From Verrucomicrobiales bacterium (lineage in GTDB: Bacteria > Verrucomicrobiota > Verrucomicrobiia > Verrucomicrobiales > DEV007): a stretch of DNA of 64,000 nucleotides. Under the pieces are notes generated by a model, which saw only the letters and a program-made list of their open reading frames with translations, was not told the DNA's origin and did not search any database. The DNA is taken from assembly GCA_029213065.1 (NCBI GenBank), contig JARGPH010000024.1:28306-92305 (forward strand), written 5' to 3'. A program made the translations under genes and the position numbers. Shown here piece by piece: positions 6,162 through 20,099 of the stretch (positions are counted from its first letter, which is position 1; each line of letters begins with the position of its first letter).

Positions 6162-7043
6162 CTAGACACCGATGGGGTGCCAGGCGGTTTTAAATTCGAC
6201 AGAATCGAGAATCCGATAGGGATCGCAGGCGGCTTCGCCGAACCAGGCCTCAGCATTTTCGAGGGCGTGAGAGTGAACGCGTTTCAAATTGTCGCCCGCT
6301 CCTTTTTTAAGTGCTGTCAGGGTCTCTGCATTGCCCGTTCCGTCCACGACCGCATTTACATCCATGTGACTGGAAATCCAGGGAACCAGTTCCGCGTGTG
6401 GACCGGTCAGGATATTGATGACCCCGGCGGGGACGTCGCTGGTTGCAAAAACTTCTGCCAGCGAGATCGCAGGGAGAGGCACTTTCTCCGAGGCAAGAGC
6501 GATGACGGTGTTTCCTGAGAGAATCGTCTGCGCGATGAGTGTGACAAGCCCGAGTAGGCCTGGGCTCTCAGGTGCGAGAGCGACGACGACTCCGGTGGGC
6601 TCCGGAGTCGTGAAATTAAAATGCGATGACGCGACGGGGTTCACGCTGCTGAAAATCTGGCTGTATTTATCTGTCCAGCCTGCGAAATAAACGAGCCTGT
6701 CGATCGAAGCTTCGACTTCAGTGAGCGCTTCTTTCCTTGAGACTCCGGTGAGTGTCGCTATTTCCTCTGAGATCGCGCTGGATCGACTTTCGAGCATCTC
6801 GGCGGCGCGATAAAGAATCTGTCCTTTCAGATACGGGGAGGTTTTTCTCCAACCGGGAAAGGCGGATCGTGCCGCGACGACGGCATCCCGAAAGTCTTTC
6901 CGTGAAGCGTGGCAGTAGTGGGCAAGATGTTCTCCGGTTTTTGCGTCGGTGGCAGTCATGTAGCGTCCGCTCTCGGTGCGGGGAAATTTTCCGCCGAGGT
7001 AGAGTTTGTAGGTTTTCAGGACAGAAAGTCTCTGGCGTGGCAT
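6162..7043 (-). CDS. Half-length aldehyde dehydrogenase-family protein lacking catalytic residues
   Basis: This 293-residue protein matches only the N-terminal, NAD-binding half of aldehyde dehydrogenases, which usually have about 480 residues. Visible blocks are the N-terminal YLGGKFPRTESGR, the GWRKTSPYLKGQILYRAAEMLE helix, PTGVVVALAPESPGLLG, the LSGNTVIALAS stretch and VPAGVINILTG. The catalytic-Glu motif (normally ELGGK) reads NLKRV, and the catalytic-Cys domain is absent. It is not an obvious truncation, since the C-terminus (KTAWHPIGV) ends cleanly. I recall short ALDH-like genes beside full-length ALDH genes in deoC-containing clusters, so a non-catalytic partner in deoxyribose catabolism is plausible here next to deoB. 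ATG 7043 was chosen over an upstream start at 7190, which overlaps the divergent gene. Confidence 0.8.
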   Translation of the reverse strand: MPRQRLSVLKTYKLYLGGKFPRTESGRYMTATDAKTGEHLAHYCHASRKDFRDAVVAARSAFPGWRKTSPYLKGQILYRAAEMLESRSSAISEEIATLTGVSRKEALTEVEASIDRLVYFAGWTDKYSQIFSSVNPVASSHFNFTTPEPTGVVVALAPESPGLLGLVTLIAQTILSGNTVIALASEKVPLPAISLAEVFATSDVPAGVINILTGPHAELVPWISSHMDVNAVVDGTGNAETLTALKKGAGDNLKRVHSHALENAEAWFGEAACDPYRILDSVEFKTAWHPIGV

Positions 7044-7150
7044 GCGCTCAGAATACAGGGGAAGATCAGTTTTGAACAGAGCAGATCGTGGAAAAATCCC
7101 TCTTAAAAAAAAGTCTGTCGCAGACACCAGCATTGTGATTCCATAGAAAG

Positions 7151-7516
7151 GTGGACGAGGAACGCGAAGAAAAGACAAACAAGCTGGCATTGGGATTGGC
7201 GACGGGATGGATTCTGATTCGTCACCGTCCCTATCGTCGGAATCTTCTGTTTATCTCCACGATTGTGGCGCTCATCCTCGTCTTTGCGGGCGCGATTCCG
7301 CTGGGGCCATTTTTAATGGAGCGCCCGCTGACCTTCGCGCTGTTCTGGCTGGGGTGTTTTCTTCTCGTCGGGTTTGTTTTCATCCTCGCTATTTACGATC
7401 TCATCCGGATTCGCTCGGATCACCGGCACCGCATGATTGAGTTGGAAAAGGAACTCGCTGAGGCGGCAGAGGAAGCGCGGGAGATTGCCCGGGAGGAGTT
7501 GGGTGACGAGTCCTAG
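7151..7516 (+). CDS. Small two-helix membrane protein, function unknown
   Basis: A 121-residue protein with a basic, amphipathic N-terminus (GWILIRHRPYRRN), two strong membrane helices at about residues 32-52 and 60-84, and an acidic coiled-coil-like tail from residue 90 (ELEKELAEAAEEAREIAREELGDE). The start is GTG at 7151; no ATG is available near it. It is divergent from the ALDH-like gene, with about 107 bp between the two starts to hold both promoters. I do not recognise a family. The topology suggests an inner-membrane anchor presenting a charged cytoplasmic helix. Confidence 0.65.
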   Translation: MDEEREEKTNKLALGLATGWILIRHRPYRRNLLFISTIVALILVFAGAIPLGPFLMERPLTFALFWLGCFLLVGFVFILAIYDLIRIRSDHRHRMIELEKELAEAAEEAREIAREELGDES

Positions 7517-7579
7517 CTTGTCAGCGGAAACGCGGATGCGTTGCTTGCAGGGTTGTTTTGTCCCGTGTTAGGATGCGCC

Positions 7580-8299
7580 ATGATGAAACTGGCCTTTCTG
7601 TTTAGTGCTTTCGCGTTGATTCTTCCCGCGCTTCAGGCGGATGAGAGCGGGTTCGGAACGCTCATTTTTGAGGACTACTTTGAGCGAAGCGAGTCGCAGG
7701 AGCTGAAGGACGAGCCGGGGAATGAATGGACGACCTCGAGCGACAAGACGGCAGCGGGGAACAAGGAGGTCGATCTGCGGGACGGGGCGATGTATATATA
7801 CACGCACAAAGACGCGAATCATGCGACCTCGGTGCGTCATGCTTTTGCCTTCACCGACGGAACGATCGGCTTGCGCTTTAAACTCGAAGCGGAAGATGAT
7901 TCTCTGATGTTGAACTTCGCAGATCTGGATCTGAAATCAGTTCATGCCGGGCACCTCTTTAAAGTCTATGTCAATCACGAGGGGGTGAAGATTGCCGATC
8001 AGAAAACCGGGGAGATGAATCTGGAACTCCGGAACGCGAAGAAGAACGGGACCCTGACGAATGAACAAAGGAAGGCCGTCTCAGCGAAAGGAAAAACATT
8101 CCCTAATCCGGTCAGCCTGAACGAGTGGCATCAAATCTATGTGACGGTGAAGGGCGAGGAACTCACCTGTTCGATTGACGGGGAGTTGGCGGGGAGTTTT
8201 TCGTCTGAAGGCTTTGCCCACGAGACGAAGACCCTCCTCCGTTTGCTGGTCGCGAAGAACGCCTATGTCGATGACGTCAAAATCTGGCGTCAAAAATAG
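7580..8299 (+). CDS. Secreted concanavalin-like (LamG/3-keto-disaccharide hydrolase-like) protein
   Basis: A 239-residue exported protein. The first 20 residues are a Sec signal peptide (MMKLAFLFSAFALILPALQA). The mature part begins with LIFEDYFERSES and contains alternating beta-strand patterns ending in a VDDVKIWR motif, typical of the DUF1080/LamG jelly-roll proteins abundant in Verrucomicrobia and Planctomycetes. These bind or cleave glycosidic substrates in the periplasm. No catalytic residue can be assigned from sequence. ATG 7580 is preferred to an upstream start at 7541, which would add a non-signal-like leader. Confidence 0.65.
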   Translation: MMKLAFLFSAFALILPALQADESGFGTLIFEDYFERSESQELKDEPGNEWTTSSDKTAAGNKEVDLRDGAMYIYTHKDANHATSVRHAFAFTDGTIGLRFKLEAEDDSLMLNFADLDLKSVHAGHLFKVYVNHEGVKIADQKTGEMNLELRNAKKNGTLTNEQRKAVSAKGKTFPNPVSLNEWHQIYVTVKGEELTCSIDGELAGSFSSEGFAHETKTLLRLLVAKNAYVDDVKIWRQK

Positions 8300-8356
8300 A
8301 AGGAACAGGTTTCAGCGGTCCTTGACGCAACGGCGAGGGCGCGGTAGCTCTTCCCC

Positions 8357-8713
8357 ATGAGCAAGGTGACGATTTATCATTTCAACCATTGAGGTTCCTC
8401 TACAAATGCCCTGGCGGTCGCCACGGAATTGGGAGTTGAGCACGAGGTTGTTCTTTATATCAAAACCCCTCCGGGTCGGGAGGAGTTGGAGAAGATTATT
8501 TCGGTGTTGGAAGATCCGGTCGAGGATCTCGTGCGGAAGGATTCAAAGTTTAAGAAGCTGGAGTTGAATCCTGATGATTACGTCGGCAATCCCGAGGCCG
8601 TCATCGAAATACTCTTGAAGCACAAGCAGCTCCTGCAGCGCCCTGTGCTTTTGAGGGACGATAAAGCGATCATCGGTCGTCCGAAGGCGAGGATCGTGGA
8701 GTTTTTAGGTTAG
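8357..8713 (+). CDS. ArsC-family reductase with predicted selenocysteine (in-frame TGA at codon 12)
   Basis: The frame from ATG 8357 reads MSKVTIYHFNH, then TGA at 8390-8392, then GSSTNALAVATELGVEHEVV and on to 8713, giving 118 residues, the normal ArsC length. In ArsC/YffB thioredoxin-fold reductases the same segment is IYHNPxCxxSR, with the catalytic Cys at residue 12; here the TGA falls exactly on that residue and His8 is kept. The anion-binding arginines of the plasmid R773 ArsC have counterparts: Arg60 (LVRKD), Arg95 (QRPVLL) and Arg108 (GRPKA). KTPP at 36-39 is also typical. A hairpin with a GGUC loop follows the TGA at bacterial SECIS distance. The residue after the motif differs (SST rather than SR), so the substrate may not be arsenate. 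Selenocysteine insertion machinery is not in the window. Confidence 0.82.
8404..8430 (+). promoter_or_regulatory. Candidate bacterial SECIS element for the ArsC-family gene
   Basis: Immediately downstream of the TGA (8390-8392), 8412-8415 pairs with 8420-8423 to close a GGTC loop at 8416-8419. The stem extends after a C-C mismatch through 8409-8410 with 8425-8426 and, after one more mismatch, 8405-8407 with 8428-8430. The loop G is base 27 counting the U of UGA as 1. Bacterial SECIS hairpins sit inside the coding region with a G/GU in the apical loop; the E. coli fdhF loop also contains GGUC, with its key G at base 23. Confidence 0.65.
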
Positions 8714-8829: not shown

Positions 8830-9606
8830 ATGACTACGAAAACCTTCCCAGCGAAGATAGACGGATTATTCAGGCTCTTGCGCGGCCTCGTTTGTGTCAT
8901 CGCAATCCCGCTTTTCCCGGCTGGTTCGACCTGCCATGCCGATGAAACGACCTCTCAGATTGTCACGGTCATCACTGGCGACTGGGCTGATACGACGGGG
9001 GAGCTGAATGCGTTCGAGTTTGACGGTGCTCAGTGGAAAAAGGTCATCGCCGGTATTGCTGTGACGGTGGGAAAAAAGGGAATGGGCTGGGGAGTCGGTC
9101 TCTTTCCGGATGGTTTGAAAGGCCCGCAGAAGAGAGAAGGGGATCACCGGGCTCCGGCAGGAATTTTTAAAATTGAATCCGCCTTTGGAAGTGAGGCGCG
9201 AGAGGGGCTTCGGATTCCCTACCGGCGGACCACTGCTCTCGATTTCTGGGTCGATGATTCTAATTCTAAATTCTATAATCAATGGGTGCAGACCCGCGAC
9301 CGCTCCGCTCAAAGCGATTGGAATTCTGCGGAAACGCTGCTTCGGAAGGACGGTCTATATGAACTCGGCCTTGTCGTGGGGCATAACCGGTCTCCCGCGA
9401 TCGCAACGCGGGGCAGTGCGATTTTCATCCACCGGTGGAGGAAGCCCGGAGCTGCCACGATCGGTTGCACCGCGATGGACAAGGCGCATTTGGAAGCGCT
9501 CGCAACCTGGCTCGACGCATCGAAGAACCCTCTCCTCGTGCAAGTTCCCATTGCGGAGCTGGATAAAGTGTCGGTGCCCAACGCCGTTAAGGCGGCTCTT
9601 AAATGA
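8830..9606 (+). CDS. L,D-transpeptidase (YkuD-fold) catalytic domain protein, exported
   Basis: A 258-residue exported enzyme that likely forms or trims peptidoglycan cross-links, or acts as a related L,D-transpeptidase. After a hydrophobic signal segment (residues about 14-36) the YkuD-type fold shows HRAPAGIF (about 105-112), VVGHNRSPA, and the active site IFIH followed 12 residues later by GCTAMD; His201 and Cys213 would be the catalytic pair. I chose ATG 8830 over TTG 8803. It follows the ArsC-family gene by 116 bp on the same strand, with no shared operon signal. Confidence 0.82.
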   Translation: MTTKTFPAKIDGLFRLLRGLVCVIAIPLFPAGSTCHADETTSQIVTVITGDWADTTGELNAFEFDGAQWKKVIAGIAVTVGKKGMGWGVGLFPDGLKGPQKREGDHRAPAGIFKIESAFGSEAREGLRIPYRRTTALDFWVDDSNSKFYNQWVQTRDRSAQSDWNSAETLLRKDGLYELGLVVGHNRSPAIATRGSAIFIHRWRKPGAATIGCTAMDKAHLEALATWLDASKNPLLVQVPIAELDKVSVPNAVKAALK

Positions 9607-9712
9607 TCTATAGAGAGCACTTTACACAAATTCTCCGGGTGCAGAATACCTGAAAAAAGATTTGTCGAACCGTAAATTCTATGTAGCATCAATTCTCAAT
9701 ACACCGACTCAT

Positions 9713-10276
9713 ATGAAAGGGATTATTACATTTTTGGCAATCACCGTGCTCTTCGGCTCGGTTGCTCAAGCGGGATGGGGATGGAACAAAGAGGCCTACC
9801 AAAGTGCCAAGTCTCCCATGGTTGAGCAGAGAACGACCAGCCCGAGTTACTGCTACGACACTGGATTTGAGTTCAGTGCCTTTGGATCAGGTTTCTGGCC
9901 GGAAGCGACCAATTTGGACAACGCTCTCGGTGGCGGTGCCGGACTCTCCTACTTCTTCGGACCGAATCTCGGTGTTGAGTTGATGTATGCGGTTCACGGT
10001 TCCGGCGTTGCTGAGCAGGTTGGAAAAGGAAACATCGTTTATCGCTGGCCTCTCGGTGGTGAGTGCTGCGCAACGATCGCCCCATACGTCTTCGGCGGAC
10101 CGGGTGTTGTTTCACGTGGCGGAAGTGAGTTTCTCTGGAACCTCGGTGGTGGTCTTGATTTCCGTTTGGAATCATGGGGCTGCATCGGAGTGTTCTCCGA
10201 TTTCTCCTACAACTGGGTCGAAGGCGGTGTATCTGATTTCACGATGATTCGCGCCGGATTCAGAGTTCCCTTTTAG
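9713..10276 (+). CDS. Secreted outer-membrane beta-barrel-like protein
   Basis: A 187-residue protein with a signal peptide (MKGIITFLAITVLFGSVAQA) and a mature region of alternating aromatic/hydrophobic residues, rich in glycine: GFEFSAFGSGFWPEATNLDNALGGGAGLSYFFGPNLGVELMYAV and a terminal RAGFRVPF. The final residue is Phe, as in outer-membrane barrels. The size suggests an eight-stranded OmpX/OmpW-like barrel. The internal ATG 9713 gives a clean signal peptide, unlike the upstream start at 9662. It is followed by its own terminator, so it is monocistronic. Confidence 0.75.
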   Translation: MKGIITFLAITVLFGSVAQAGWGWNKEAYQSAKSPMVEQRTTSPSYCYDTGFEFSAFGSGFWPEATNLDNALGGGAGLSYFFGPNLGVELMYAVHGSGVAEQVGKGNIVYRWPLGGECCATIAPYVFGGPGVVSRGGSEFLWNLGGGLDFRLESWGCIGVFSDFSYNWVEGGVSDFTMIRAGFRVPF

Positions 10277-10301
10277 TCGAACTTCGATTCAATCGATTGA
10301 G

Positions 10302-10334
10302 AAACCGGGGTGACTTGTTCGCGCCGGTTTTTTT
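10302..10334 (+). terminator. Rho-independent terminator after the beta-barrel gene
   Basis: The stem 10302-10308 with 10324-10330 (7 bp, 15-base loop) is followed by a T tract to 10334. It lies 25 bp after the barrel stop codon and before the next gene's ATG at 10373. Confidence 0.75.
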
Positions 10335-10372
10335 GTGTCCTGTTCCAAAAAGGTTTGGCACCGTATGCGTCA

Positions 10373-13300
10373 ATGAATTGGACGACCCATACTCTTCGCT
10401 TTTTCTCGATAGGATTTTTCATTGGAGCGACGGGATGGCTTGATGCTCAGGATACTTCTGTGGCCGGGAACGATCAGGTTGCCGACATCATTAAGAACTA
10501 CGAGGGGCGCGGTGCGTTGTCGGACGGCTCCAGCCCGACTCCGCCGGAGGAGGCGCTCAAGGAGTTCACGGTGCGCGAGGGATTTGAAGTCGAACTCGTC
10601 GCGAGCGAGCCGGTCATCGGTCAGCCGCTTCACATCAGTTGGGATTCCAAAGGGCGTATGTGGGTGACGCAGTACCTGCAGTATCAGTTCCCCGCCGGCC
10701 TCAAGATCGTGGAATACGACAACCACCTGCGGGCTCAGTTCGATAAAATGCCGGAGCCTCCGCCGCATGGCGCGAAGGGCGCGGATAAAATCACGGTGTT
10801 TGAGGACACGACGGGGGACGGCCTTTACGACAGTCATCGCGATGTCATCACGGGACTGAATATTGCGACGTCCTGTGTCACCGGGGCGGGTGGCATCTGG
10901 GTGACGAATGCTCCCTATCTGCTTTTCTATCCCGACGCCGATGGTGATGCGGTCCCGGATGGTGATCCTGAGGTGATGTTGTCAGGGTTTGGAATCGAAG
11001 ATACTCACGCGGTCGCGAACAGTCTCAAGTGGGGACCTGACGGCTGGCTATATGGCGCGACGGGGAGCACCACGACTGCTTCGGTGACCGATCCAGCAAC
11101 TGGGCAGACCGTGGAATGGCAGGGGCAGGCGATCTGGCGATTTCACCCGACGACAAAGGAGTTTGAGATTTTCGCCGAAGGCGGAGGCAACACCTTTTCG
11201 CTCGAGATTGATTCGGCGGGACGGGTCTTTTCAGGAACCAATCATGGCAACACCCGCGGGATGTATTACCCGCAGGGGAGTTACGGAAGTAAATCCTGGG
11301 GCAAGCACGGCCCGCTCACAAATCCGTATGCCTTTGGTTACTTCGAACACATGAAGCACGAGGGAGATGATCGACGCTTTGCTCAGGCCTTTTGCATCTA
11401 CGAGGGTGGGCTTTTCCCTGATTCCTGGGATCACAAAATCATCGCCGCGAACTCCCTCCACAACATCGTCTGGGTCAGTGAAATTCAGCCGGACGGTTCG
11501 ACGTTTAAAACCGTCGACGAAGAGCCGCTTCTCAAGTCGGAAGATCGCTGGTTCCGTCCTGTATTCTGCGGCGTCGGTCCCGATGGCTGTGTCTACATCG
11601 CCGACTGGTATGACACCCGGCTGAGCCACGTGCGCCCCGTCGATGACTGGCACAAGAACAGCGGGCGGATCTATCGGGTCAAACCGACGGGAACGAATCC
11701 GAAGGTGACGCATGGGGATTTGAGTAAAATGGAAGCTGCTGATTTGGCTGCAAAATTTGATGACCCGAACTGGGTTGTAAGAAAGCGTGCTCTTTTGGAC
11801 TTGGCTTGGAAATCGAAAGAATACCCTGACTCGTTAATATTTTGGCCCAGTACTTTCGGTTTCTCAGCCGAGTTCGAACCTCGTAAGTTTCAAGAACGGG
11901 AAGGACACGATCCATATGATTTGTTCAGTGCTGTTCTGAAAAAAGCGAATGAACAAGAAGCTAGTGCGGCATGGACGGTTAGAAGTCTCGGAGAGTTTCC
12001 TACGGCAAATCAGAATATTGTGGAGGAGTTTGTTTCAGGCATAGTTGATCTCGAGCTAACAGATTGGGACCTTGCTACCCGAGCCCAATTCGCCTCCACA
12101 GCAAAAAGGGTATCAGTTGATTCCGCTATCAAGATAATATCGAAGCTTCTCACTCATGATGAAGACGCTACCGACCCGCACATCCCGCTCCTGATTTGGT
12201 GGGCGATAGAGGCGCATGCAGAAGACGGTCGCTCCGAAATCGAAGCTCTCGCGGCCGATCCCGAAACCTGGAAGTCGAAGATCTTTCGCGAAGTCGTCGC
12301 TGAGCGCCTTGCCCGTCGTTATTGCATGGCCGGCGGCGATGCCAATTTCCTATCAGCGGCGAAGCTCCTCGAAACGGCTCCTGACGCGGATGCGAAAAAG
12401 CGGCTCATGACGGGATTGCAGCTCGCTTTTCAGGGGGCTCCGATTCCTGAATTGCCTGCGGCACTTTCCACGCAGATGGACGCCTACGAATCCGAAGGTG
12501 GCAGCAACACGCTCGCCCTCGCGATTCAGCGGGGAGACAAGGAGGCGCTGAAAAAGGCGCTCGGAGTCGTCGCGAGCAATGCCTCCGACCCGGTCGAGCG
12601 CATCGAACTCGCGAAGCTGTTCGGTGAGGTCAATGATCCCGTCGTGATCGGGACGCTTCTCAAACTGATCGCGCTCGATCAGCACAGCACGCTGAAGAAG
12701 GTCGCGCTTCAGTCGCTTGCCAATTACGACGATGACAAAATCGGATCGACGATTTTGTATCGACTCGGTTCTACGCTTCCGGCTGAGCATGAAGTGAGAT
12801 CAACGGCTCATCGTGTTTTGGCAGGACGTCTTGCCTGGGCGAAGCCGTTTCTGGAAAAGGTGGACCTCGCTCATGTGAAGGCGCGCAATGTTTCTCCGGA
12901 TGTCGTTCAGCTTCTCGCCCAGCATAAAGATCCCGAGATCAATGCGGCGATCAAAAAACACTGGCCGGATCAGCTCGCCGGTTCGTCGGAAGAGAACCAG
13001 CTGGAGATGGCGCGTATTCAAAAAGCGGTCGCTGCCGGCGGTGGTGACGCTGAGGCGGGGAAAGTTCATTTCGCAGCGCGTTGTGCGATTTGCCACAAAC
13101 TCTTCGGCGAGGGAATGCCGGTGGGTCCTGATTTGACGCCCTACGAGCGCAACAATCTCGAGTTCTGGATTCCGGCGATCGTCGATCCGAGTCTGGAATT
13201 GCGTGAAGGATTTCTCAACTACGTCGCAACGATGAAGGACGGCCGAAAGATCATTGGAATGTTGAAAGAGCAGTCACCTCAGAATGTGACCCTGCGTGAC

Positions 13301-15885: not shown

Positions 15886-15960
15886 AACCCTGTTTGCTCA
15901 GACACCTGACCCTCTTCACTCTTTCACCCAACCCTGTTATGTCATTGATTAAACCCTGTT
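15886..15960 (+). repeat. Four-unit 22-bp-spaced AACCCTGTT array overlapping the sulfatase start
   Basis: AACCCTGTT or a two-mismatch variant starts at 15886, 15908, 15930 and 15952, exactly 22 bp apart. The third unit abuts the ATG at 15939 and the fourth lies inside the signal-peptide coding region. Related pairs at the same spacing occur at 25235, 41806, 49270 and 62644. Confidence 0.7.
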
Positions 15961-17411
15961 TACTCGCCGCTTTGGCGCTGGCTTCGCTGTCTGCTGCCGG
16001 AGCGGAAAAGCCGAACGTGCTCATGATCGCGATTGATGATCAAAATGACTGGATCGGTTATATGGGAGGGCATCCCAATGCGAAGACTCCTAACATTGAC
16101 GCATTGGCAGCGCGGGGGACCGGGTTCACCAACGCCCATTGTCAGGCACCGCTTTGCAACCCGTCGAGAGCGAGCTTGATGCTCTCGAAGCGCCCCGGGA
16201 GCACGGGGATCTATGGGCTGAAGCCCTGGTTCCGCGATGTGCCTGAATTGGCTGAGCTGGAAACTTTGCCGCAGTTCATGCGGCGCAATGGTTACAAAAC
16301 CTACATGGCCGGCAAGATCTATCATGGGAACTATGGTCGGGACGCGCCGAAAGAATGGGATGCGATCGGGCCGGGAGCGACCGGCAAGCCGTTTCCGCCA
16401 AAGCCTCTTGTCGACGCGCCTTCCGGACACAAGCTGATGGACTGGGGTGTCTTTCCTCATGAGGATGAGGACAAGGGGGATTGGAAAATCGCGTCGTGGA
16501 CGGTCGATCAACTTAACGCGATGCCGAAGGATGAACCGTTCTTTCTTTCCTGCGGATTTTTTCTTCCCCATGTGCCGTGCTTCGCGACGCAGAAGTGGTT
16601 CGATCTTCATCCGCTTGAGTCGACCGCTTTACCGATCATTAAGCGTGATGACAGGAAGGATACGCCGCGCTTTTCCTGGTACATGCACTGGAAGTTACCC
16701 GAGCCCCGTTTGGAATTTCTCGAAGATGCCGATGAGTGGTTGAACCTGACCCGCTCGTATCTTGCCTGCACCAGCTTTGTCGATGCACAGGTGAAGCGGG
16801 TTCTCGATGCTCTCGAAGCGAACGGACTGAAGGACAACACGATTGTGGTCCTCTGGTCGGATCACGGCTGGCATATCGGCGAGAAAGAGATCACGGGAAA
16901 GAACACGCTCTGGGATGACGGAACGCGGGTGCCGTTGATTTTTGCAGGGCCCGGAGTCGTTGCCGGTCAGGTTTCGAATCAACCCGCGGAGCTGCTCGAC
17001 ATTTATCCGACCCTTGCCGAGCTCTGCGGGCTGCCGGAGAAAGAAGGTCTCGAAGGGTTGTCTCTTGTTCCTCAGTTGAAAGACGGAACTACCAAACGCG
17101 AACGCCCTGCGATCACGACTCACAACGCGGGGAATCATGGGATTCGTTCAGAGAACTGGAGATATATTGTCTATGCGGATGGTTCGGAGGAACTATACGA
17201 TATGGTGAAAGATCCTAACGAATGGACTAACCTCGCCGGAGACAGTCAGTATGCTGATATCATCGCGGCACACCGCAAGTGGGTTCCGAAAAACGATCGG
17301 GACCCGGCCCCGAACAGCGAGGCGCGGATCATCATTTATAAAGACGGTCAGATGAACTGGGAGGGTGAGGATGTCGCTGCGGATGCACCTATTCCGGAGA
17401 TCACACGCTGA
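15939..17411 (+). CDS. Secreted sulfatase (iduronate-2-sulfatase-like)
   Basis: A 490-residue exported type I sulfatase, which hydrolyses sulfate esters in the periplasm after its active-site Cys is converted to formylglycine. The signal peptide ends near residue 22. Motifs: the metal-binding IDDQNDW near residue 32, the formylglycine signature CNPSR at residues 73-77, GKIYHG, and the C-terminal LWSDHGWHIGEKE. The overall pattern resembles iduronate-2-sulfatase-type enzymes, although the sugar substrate is an inference. ATG 15939 is preferred to 15894 because it gives a clean signal peptide. A c-type cytochrome gene follows 42 bp after its stop. Confidence 0.92.
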   Translation: MSLIKPCLLAALALASLSAAGAEKPNVLMIAIDDQNDWIGYMGGHPNAKTPNIDALAARGTGFTNAHCQAPLCNPSRASLMLSKRPGSTGIYGLKPWFRDVPELAELETLPQFMRRNGYKTYMAGKIYHGNYGRDAPKEWDAIGPGATGKPFPPKPLVDAPSGHKLMDWGVFPHEDEDKGDWKIASWTVDQLNAMPKDEPFFLSCGFFLPHVPCFATQKWFDLHPLESTALPIIKRDDRKDTPRFSWYMHWKLPEPRLEFLEDADEWLNLTRSYLACTSFVDAQVKRVLDALEANGLKDNTIVVLWSDHGWHIGEKEITGKNTLWDDGTRVPLIFAGPGVVAGQVSNQPAELLDIYPTLAELCGLPEKEGLEGLSLVPQLKDGTTKRERPAITTHNAGNHGIRSENWRYIVYADGSEELYDMVKDPNEWTNLAGDSQYADIIAAHRKWVPKNDRDPAPNSEARIIIYKDGQMNWEGEDVAADAPIPEITR

Positions 17412-18623: not shown

Positions 18624-20099
18624 ATGAAATTCCCTCTGCGTTTAGTCGCGCTCTTTGCGTGCGTTACATCGGTGGCTTCCGTATCCTTTGCAGAAGATCG
18701 TCCTAACATTCTCTTTATTTTCGCGGACGACCAAAGTTACGAAACCGTCCGTGCTTTTGAGTTCACAGATATTGATACGCCGAATCTCGACAAGCTCGTC
18801 GAGCGCGGCACGACGTTTACGCATGCCTACAACATGGGGAGCTGGAGTGGGGCGGTTTGTGTGGCGAGTCGACACATGCTGAACACCGGTGCGTTTGTCT
18901 GGAATGCAGAGCGACTTTCAGAGGGCCTCGGTCGTGCCGGCAAGAAGGGGGCACAGGTTCCAAAAGTGGATTCGGGGATTCCCGACTTTCAGGAGGAGGG
19001 GCTGATGTGGTCGCAGTTGATGAGCCAGTCGGGCTATAGCACTTACTTTACGGGCAAGTGGCATGTGAAGGCTGATCCCAAAAAGATTTTTGATGTGGCC
19101 CGTCATATCCGCGGAGGGATGCCTCAACAGACCCCTGCCGGGTATGACCGACCGGTGCAGGGTATACCCGACAAATGGAGTCCATACGACCCGGCGTTCG
19201 GTGGCTTCTGGGAAGGTGGAAAACACTGGAGTGAAGTGGTGGGTGATGATGCCTGTGATTTTTTGAATGAAGCGAAGGCGGATGCGAATCCCTTTTTCAT
19301 GTATGTCGCCTTCAATGCTCCGCATGATCCGAGGCAGGCTCCGAAGGAATTTGTGGATCGATACCCGCTTGACCGGATCGCGATCCCTGAAAATTTTCAG
19401 ACGGATTACCCCGATCGGGATTTGATCGACAATCCCGCCTCGTTGCGTGACGAGCGTCTGGCGCCGGTGCCGCGCACGAAGTTTGCGGTGCAGGTTCATC
19501 GTCAGGAGTACTATGCGAGTATCACTCATATGGACGAGCAGATCGGGCGCATTCTCGACGCTTTGGAGAAGAGTGGGAAAGCGGACAATACCTATATTGT
19601 TTTCACCGCTGACCATGGACTCGCGGTGGGGCATCATGGATTCATCGGGAAACAGAATCTCTACGAGCACAGCACCCGTGTTCCTTTCATGATCGTGGGG
19701 CCGGATGTCGAAGCGGGTAAAAAGATGGATACGCCAATCTATTTGCAGGATGTCATGCCGACTTCACTTGAGCTGGCCGGTATCAAAAAGCCGGAGCATG
19801 TCGAATTTCAATCTCTCCTCCCGGTTCTCGCAGGAGAATCGAAGGGATACGAATCCATTTACGGTGCCTATTTGAAGAGTCAGCGGAGCATTACGAGAGA
19901 CGGTTTTAAACTGATTGTTTATCCAAAGATTCCGAAAGTGCTTCTTTATGATCTCGCGAATGATCCCATGGAGATGAACGACCTTGCAGGAGAGAAGCCC
20001 ACCAAAGTGGCAGGCTTGTTCACCGCCCTCTTAGATCTGCAGGAGGAAGTCAACGACACGGTCGATCTCAAGACCGTCTTTCCGGACCTCGCGAAGTAG
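18624..20099 (+). CDS. Secreted sulfatase with a CVASR active-site motif
   Basis: A 491-residue exported sulfatase with a signal peptide of about 23 residues. The metal site begins with FIFADDQSYE (about 31-40), the formylglycine motif is CVASR at 79-83 (Ala in place of the usual Pro), then GKWHVK and the C-terminal TADHGLAVGHHGFIGKQNLYEHSTRVPF. The C-x-A-x-R variant is compatible with formylglycine formation, so the enzyme should be active. The arrangement resembles choline-sulfatase and arylsulfatase-type family members; the substrate is unknown. No partner gene is linked to it; 205 bp of non-coding DNA follow. Confidence 0.9.
   Translation: MKFPLRLVALFACVTSVASVSFAEDRPNILFIFADDQSYETVRAFEFTDIDTPNLDKLVERGTTFTHAYNMGSWSGAVCVASRHMLNTGAFVWNAERLSEGLGRAGKKGAQVPKVDSGIPDFQEEGLMWSQLMSQSGYSTYFTGKWHVKADPKKIFDVARHIRGGMPQQTPAGYDRPVQGIPDKWSPYDPAFGGFWEGGKHWSEVVGDDACDFLNEAKADANPFFMYVAFNAPHDPRQAPKEFVDRYPLDRIAIPENFQTDYPDRDLIDNPASLRDERLAPVPRTKFAVQVHRQEYYASITHMDEQIGRILDALEKSGKADNTYIVFTADHGLAVGHHGFIGKQNLYEHSTRVPFMIVGPDVEAGKKMDTPIYLQDVMPTSLELAGIKKPEHVEFQSLLPVLAGESKGYESIYGAYLKSQRSITRDGFKLIVYPKIPKVLLYDLANDPMEMNDLAGEKPTKVAGLFTALLDLQEEVNDTVDLKTVFPDLAK

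Follow-up and report, generated by a model that had tools for sequence, protein, structure and literature searches.

The 64,000-nt stretch of Verrucomicrobiales DNA analysed here (the window) contains a gene that very probably encodes a selenoprotein of the ArsC fold, with the SECIS element listed in Table 1. Comparison across two bacterial phyla makes it practically certain that the in-frame TGA at codon 12 is read as selenocysteine (Sec). The Sec machinery of the genome, the conservation of the TGA and a downstream hairpin showing both codon constraint and covariation all agree with this reading, which a first-pass annotation made from the window alone had put forward as probable.

Table 1. 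Features of the Sec-ArsC locus (positions within the window)
Feature	Position	Strand	Remarks
Predicted Sec-containing ArsC-family gene	8357..8713	+	118 aa with TGA as selenocysteine; 88 distinct copies conserved
TGA codon 12, predicted Sec at the catalytic Cys position	8390..8392	+	88/88 distinct copies, two phyla; aligns with E. coli ArsC Cys12
Predicted SECIS hairpin within the coding sequence	8409..8426	+	7-bp stem, 8409-8415 / 8420-8426; GGUC apical loop
GGUC apical loop	8416..8419	+	23 nt 3' of the TGA; invariant
Shortened frame, TTG start	8429..8713	+	What an ordinary gene caller would give instead

With the TGA taken as a residue, the gene is a single open frame ending in a TAG stop (8711-8713), and the TGA is its only internal stop, as the first-pass annotation had stated. 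The translation, MSKVTIYHFNH-U-GSSTNALAVATELGVEHEVVLYIKTPPGREELEKIISVLEDPVEDLVRKDSKFKKLELNPDDYVGNPEAVIEILLKHKQLLQRPVLLRDDKAIIGRPKARIVEFLG, begins MSKVTIYHFNH-U-GSSTNAL and carries the motif U12-G-S-S15. The expectation that a gene caller would shorten the gene was also correct, the plain ORF list at the locus yielding the TTG frame of 94 aa and nothing longer; Sec genes of this type are shortened or overlooked by standard annotation. TGA-spanning frames elsewhere in the window were listed and judged by eye, and gave no convincing second candidate. Two sulfatase-like genes, recognised by eye, lie close to each other in the window (15894-17411 and 18624-20099); such pairs are common in marine Verrucomicrobiota.

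In 115 related genomes, 26 further full-length copies (65–91% identity) and two fragments were found, each interrupted once, by a TGA. A scan of named genomes gave 80 loci, all with TGA at codon 12, from Verrucomicrobiales (Akkermansiaceae, Roseibacillus), Acidimicrobiia and one bin labelled Pirellulaceae. Among the pooled distinct copies, the TGA was present at codon 12 in 88 of 88 and any other in-frame stop in none, which excludes chance; neither TGC or TGT at this codon in close relatives nor a relative with the frame broken elsewhere, two possibilities raised in the first-pass annotation, was encountered. With pN/pS at 0.23 for codons 2–11 and 0.20 for codons 13–117, the parts of the gene before and after the TGA are both under purifying selection, from which it follows that translation passes through it. 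The supposition that the TGA is a sequencing error, or a mutation that made a pseudogene of an ordinary Cys ArsC gene, has the mere presence of a stop codon in its favour and nothing more; it is refuted by this selection and by the conservation of TGA and intact frame in every distinct copy, and deserves practically no credence. The Pirellulaceae-labelled (Planctomycetota) bin, whose Sec-ArsC belongs to the same clade, had no selA match and a tRNA-Sec scoring over the cut-off; this copy is either mis-binned or a further transfer.

Bacterial SECIS models describe a stem-loop with a small G-containing apical loop, located some 16–37 nt past the UGA. The hairpin in the Sec-ArsC gene, with its GGUC loop at 23 nt, fits this description. 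In an alignment of 86 sequences (83 distinct), 96.6% of the stem cells were paired and 22 cells had changed on both sides, compared with 5.0 in shuffles, none of the 500 shuffles reaching as high a value; shifting the register of the stem partner abolished the signal. As an example of the pairing, TTA at codon 19 is accompanied by GCT at codon 22 in 10 of 10 cases and never by GCC, whereas TTG occurs with either GCC or GCT. Codon choice is most constrained at codons 18–23 and 26, the top seven positions in the gene: Ala20 is GCG in 83 of 83 sequences (23% at other Ala codons), and Val21 is encoded by GTC in 88 of 88 (against 42% at the remaining Val codons). No GGUC hairpin is present at the equivalent place in the Cys homologues of Acidimicrobiia. 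The window copy itself has an imperfect stem with one C-C mismatch and, taken alone, is thermodynamically no more stable than shuffled sequences (z 0.61), so that the support for the hairpin comes from the relatives. Thus, the GGUC-loop hairpin noticed in the first-pass annotation stands on codon constraint and covariation in relatives and not on the stability of the window copy, and by these comparative signs it is a bacterial SECIS element.

The first-pass annotation had proposed searching the genome for selA, selB, selC (tRNA-Sec) and selD, and all four were found, with scores of 501 (cut-off 267.9), 291.8 (242.25), 60.6 (47) and 379.9 bits (125) for selA, selB, tRNA-Sec and selD, respectively. 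The tRNA-Sec, with anticodon TCA, was located with its dedicated model and shares its contig with the sel cluster; Rfam and ARAGORN at default thresholds reported nothing in the window and nothing in the sel cluster. The cluster has the order selD-selA-transporter-selB, which recurs in 3 of the 10 relatives looked at. The transporter combines a PhnC-like ATPase and a pair of PhnE-like permeases with a binding protein that passes the TIGR04553 threshold (putative selenate ABC transporter) (G000:C52:240000-258000, 9422-12974). The selD gene has an in-frame TGA of its own (SCAG-U-ASKL; G000:C52:244400-246000), followed after 32 nt by a hairpin with a GGU(U) apical loop, and SelD is thus predicted to be a selenoprotein itself. 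Since the GGU loops of the selD and Sec-ArsC hairpins are similar, one SelB could serve both. Across genomes, selA was found in 28 of 28 carriers of the Sec-ArsC gene against 59 of the 115 related genomes overall (hypergeometric P 1.2e-10) and, within the genus, in 14 of 14 carriers against 25 of 34 genomes (P 0.003), genomes being counted as independent in both comparisons. Nine carrier assemblies lie beyond the 115-genome set; three of these, which are drafts, had no selA match, and one of the three has a tRNA-Sec over the cut-off. The readthrough of the TGA might also be explained by reassignment of this codon to another amino acid, e.g. Trp, in the host. We rejected this explanation, to which we assign next to no probability, since the other genes of the window fill normal table 11 frames, relatives end the same gene with a TGA terminator, and the genome has complete Sec machinery with the TGA at a catalytic Cys site.

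The window protein matched PF03960 (ArsC) with 46.7 bits, over the Pfam cut-off of 24. Its best-scoring NCBIfam model was TIGR00014 (arsC), matched over the full model length with 83.6 bits, which does not reach the equivalog threshold of 106.05, and the nearest sequences of solved structure are arsenate reductases. An AlphaFold model, for which 39 aligned sequences served as input, had a mean pLDDT of 90, and its best PDB matches were all ArsC, Spx or YffB proteins, including E. coli ArsC with arsenate (1jzw). H8, U12, R60, R95 and R108 align with His8, Cys12, Arg60, Arg94 and Arg107 of the E. coli plasmid (R773) ArsC, bearing out the earlier assignments of the TGA to the catalytic Cys codon and of His8 and the three arginines as preserved residues. 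Across the Sec copies, His8 and the three arsenate-holding arginines are retained almost without exception, the arginines at positions 60, 95 and 108 being kept in 87, 88 and 88 of 88 distinct copies. The nearness in fold to Spx structures and a match of 44.6 bits to TIGR01617 (Spx/MgsR) could be taken to mean that the product is a Sec-containing, RNA polymerase-binding regulator and no enzyme. This is very unlikely, as the match falls short of the 75.05-bit cut-off and scores far lower than that to the arsC model, the oxyanion-binding arginines are kept, and the motif of the window protein is UxxS; Spx proteins have a CxxC motif.

An Arg four residues after the catalytic residue (HX3CX3R) is absent from the window protein, which has Thr there. 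The same Arg was found in 0 of 62 Sec forms of the Verrucomicrobiota type and 11 of 26 Sec forms of Acidimicrobiia, compared with 22 of 27 Cys forms; as far as these sequences go, position 16 varies freely in the Sec form. From the replacement of SR by SST at this place it had been suggested that the substrate may be another one. The suggestion is half borne out: position 16 does vary freely in the Sec form, but with the oxyanion-binding arginines retained, a change of substrate does not follow.

On the comparative evidence, UGA 12 is very probably decoded by SelB and tRNA-Sec under the guidance of the downstream GGUC hairpin. If the enzyme works as E. coli ArsC does, an oxyanion bound by Arg60, Arg95 and Arg108, most likely arsenate, would be attacked by the position-12 selenolate, after which a low-molecular-weight thiol and a redoxin would resolve the seleno-adduct. 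The Sec form may be able to do without the Arg after the motif, a plausible reason being that at neutral pH its selenol is ionised anyway.

The chemistry of Sec-ArsC is thus most likely ArsC-like, and we consider arsenate, on a slightly better than even estimate, its likeliest single substrate. A serious competitor, which we rate at somewhat under an even chance, is that the protein is an ArsC-fold selenoprotein and no arsenate reductase, i.e. a thiol/seleno-oxidoreductase that has taken over the fold, acting for instance in deglutathionylation, as a thiol-peroxidase-like enzyme or in the reduction of another oxyanion. The genomic context points in that direction: i) no arsenic genes were recognised beside Sec-ArsC, and its neighbours vary between genomes, giving no functional hint in Verrucomicrobiota; ii) the Acr3 of the same genome lies on another contig, paired with ArsR (6905-8388 of locus L215), with no ArsC recognised adjacent; iii) a separate ArsC-like protein of the low-molecular-weight-phosphatase type is encoded elsewhere in the genome (125.9 bits, below the cut-off of 174.3); and iv) in Candidatus Microthrix-like and related MAGs of Acidimicrobiia, Sec-ArsC is located close after the dephospho-CoA kinase gene coaE and 4–20 nt before a gene for a CysQ-like phosphatase (TIGR01331, below cut-off). 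The loss of the Arg after the motif in Sec forms of the Verrucomicrobiota type, set against its retention in Cys forms, and the TIGR00014 score below the equivalog cut-off may be read in the same way. A tie to arsenite export is customary for arsenate reductases of this kind, although it does not strictly define them. Nor is there an association with Acr3, found in 7 of 28 carriers and 18 of 87 non-carriers (P 0.61); Acr3, which this comparison covered, is however one of several arsenite exporters, ArsB being among the others. Against a function other than arsenate reduction stands the almost invariable retention of His8 and of the three arginines by which the E. coli enzyme binds arsenate.

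A search of 388 genomes of the phylum beyond the host family yielded ten matches to Cys-type ArsC (E 1e-8) and not one further Sec form. In 198 genomes of the Acidimicrobiia order, the same profile had about 63 single-TGA matches and a similar number lacking a TGA; in those TGA matches that were read, the codon occupied the catalytic position, and the subfamily also includes Cys forms. The window protein shares 71–78% identity with the Sec forms of Acidimicrobiia and only about 36% with a Cys-type ArsC from the host's family. The occurrence of Sec-ArsC in one Verrucomicrobiota family and many Acidimicrobiia at some 70–80% identity implies, as judged from identity, that the gene was transferred between the two phyla, probably with its SECIS intact. 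A first tree had the Verrucomicrobiota Sec forms nested in those of Acidimicrobiia with five Sec/Cys changes and was not upheld by AU tests, in which neither a single Verrucomicrobiota clade (p 0.46) nor a single Sec clade (p 0.31) was rejected, and a constrained tree keeping the Verrucomicrobiota Sec forms together was as good or better. The 119 alignment columns are too few to settle the direction of transfer or the number of Sec/Cys changes. More tentatively, and with the odds against it, the Sec clade may constitute a separate selenoenzyme outside arsenate resistance, in which selenium replaces the Arg-assisted thiolate and which spread ready-made, with UGA and SECIS, between Acidimicrobiia and Verrucomicrobiota. 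Further Sec-ArsC subfamilies were seen in Acidimicrobiia, with the motifs U-N-S-S, U-G-K-S and U-H-A-S, some having other downstream hairpins, and four Acidimicrobiia genomes have two TGA-bearing ArsC genes apiece.

A family known mainly from metagenomic reads is hereby assigned to genomes that possess the full Sec system, and both its constrained residues and its constrained RNA bases become visible. In the two phyla, Sec and Cys versions of one small enzyme can be compared as they occur in nature and, since a catalytic-loop Arg is free to vary in the former, the advantage that selenium gives an oxyanion reductase becomes testable.

Sec-containing ArsC proteins have been known from ocean metagenomes since 2005, and the first-pass annotation was right to mention reports from metagenomes. 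A study of the Sargasso Sea metagenome described a Sec arsenate reductase with the motif UXXS and 14 sequences (PMC1088965), and the GOS metagenome study listed 77 sequences under ArsC 1 (PF03960, UxxS) (PMC2398784). Recent reviews retain the Sec arsenate reductase family, such proteins being largely uncharacterised (PMC9312934, PMC13188914). Our literature search returned no report of Sec-ArsC in Acidimicrobiia, and none was noticed for Verrucomicrobiota. The family is therefore not new; new are its setting in Verrucomicrobiota and Acidimicrobiia, the covarying SECIS and the loss of the Arg after the motif.

Among known systems, the UxxS-type Sec arsenate reductases (COG1393/PF03960) are the closest: as in the window gene, a member of the ArsC family has Sec at the catalytic Cys, the UxxS motif (here U12-G-S-S15) and a downstream bacterial SECIS. 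The published entries are mostly metagenomic, whereas the gene described here is placed in a Verrucomicrobiota family and in Acidimicrobiia, its SECIS being backed by covariation and codon usage; the likeness is judged by motif and family. The UxxC-type arsenate-reductase-like selenoprotein (NF041106; ArsC 2 of the GOS study) is likewise related to ArsC, with Sec taking the place of the catalytic Cys, but differs in its motif, and NF041106 did not match the window protein. Spx/MgsR (TIGR01617) and YffB are alike in fold and length class, with a score below the model cut-off and a different active-site motif. R773 ArsC of E. coli (TIGR00014; 1jzw, 1i9d) and the window protein, some 30% identical, have in common the fold (TM 0.79 when normalised to the query), His8, the catalytic position 12 and the equivalents of Arg60, Arg94 and Arg107. 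In contrast to R773 ArsC, the window protein would have Sec in place of Cys12, lacks Arg16, is 118 instead of about 140 aa long, is not encoded in an ars operon and scores below the cut-off of the arsC model.
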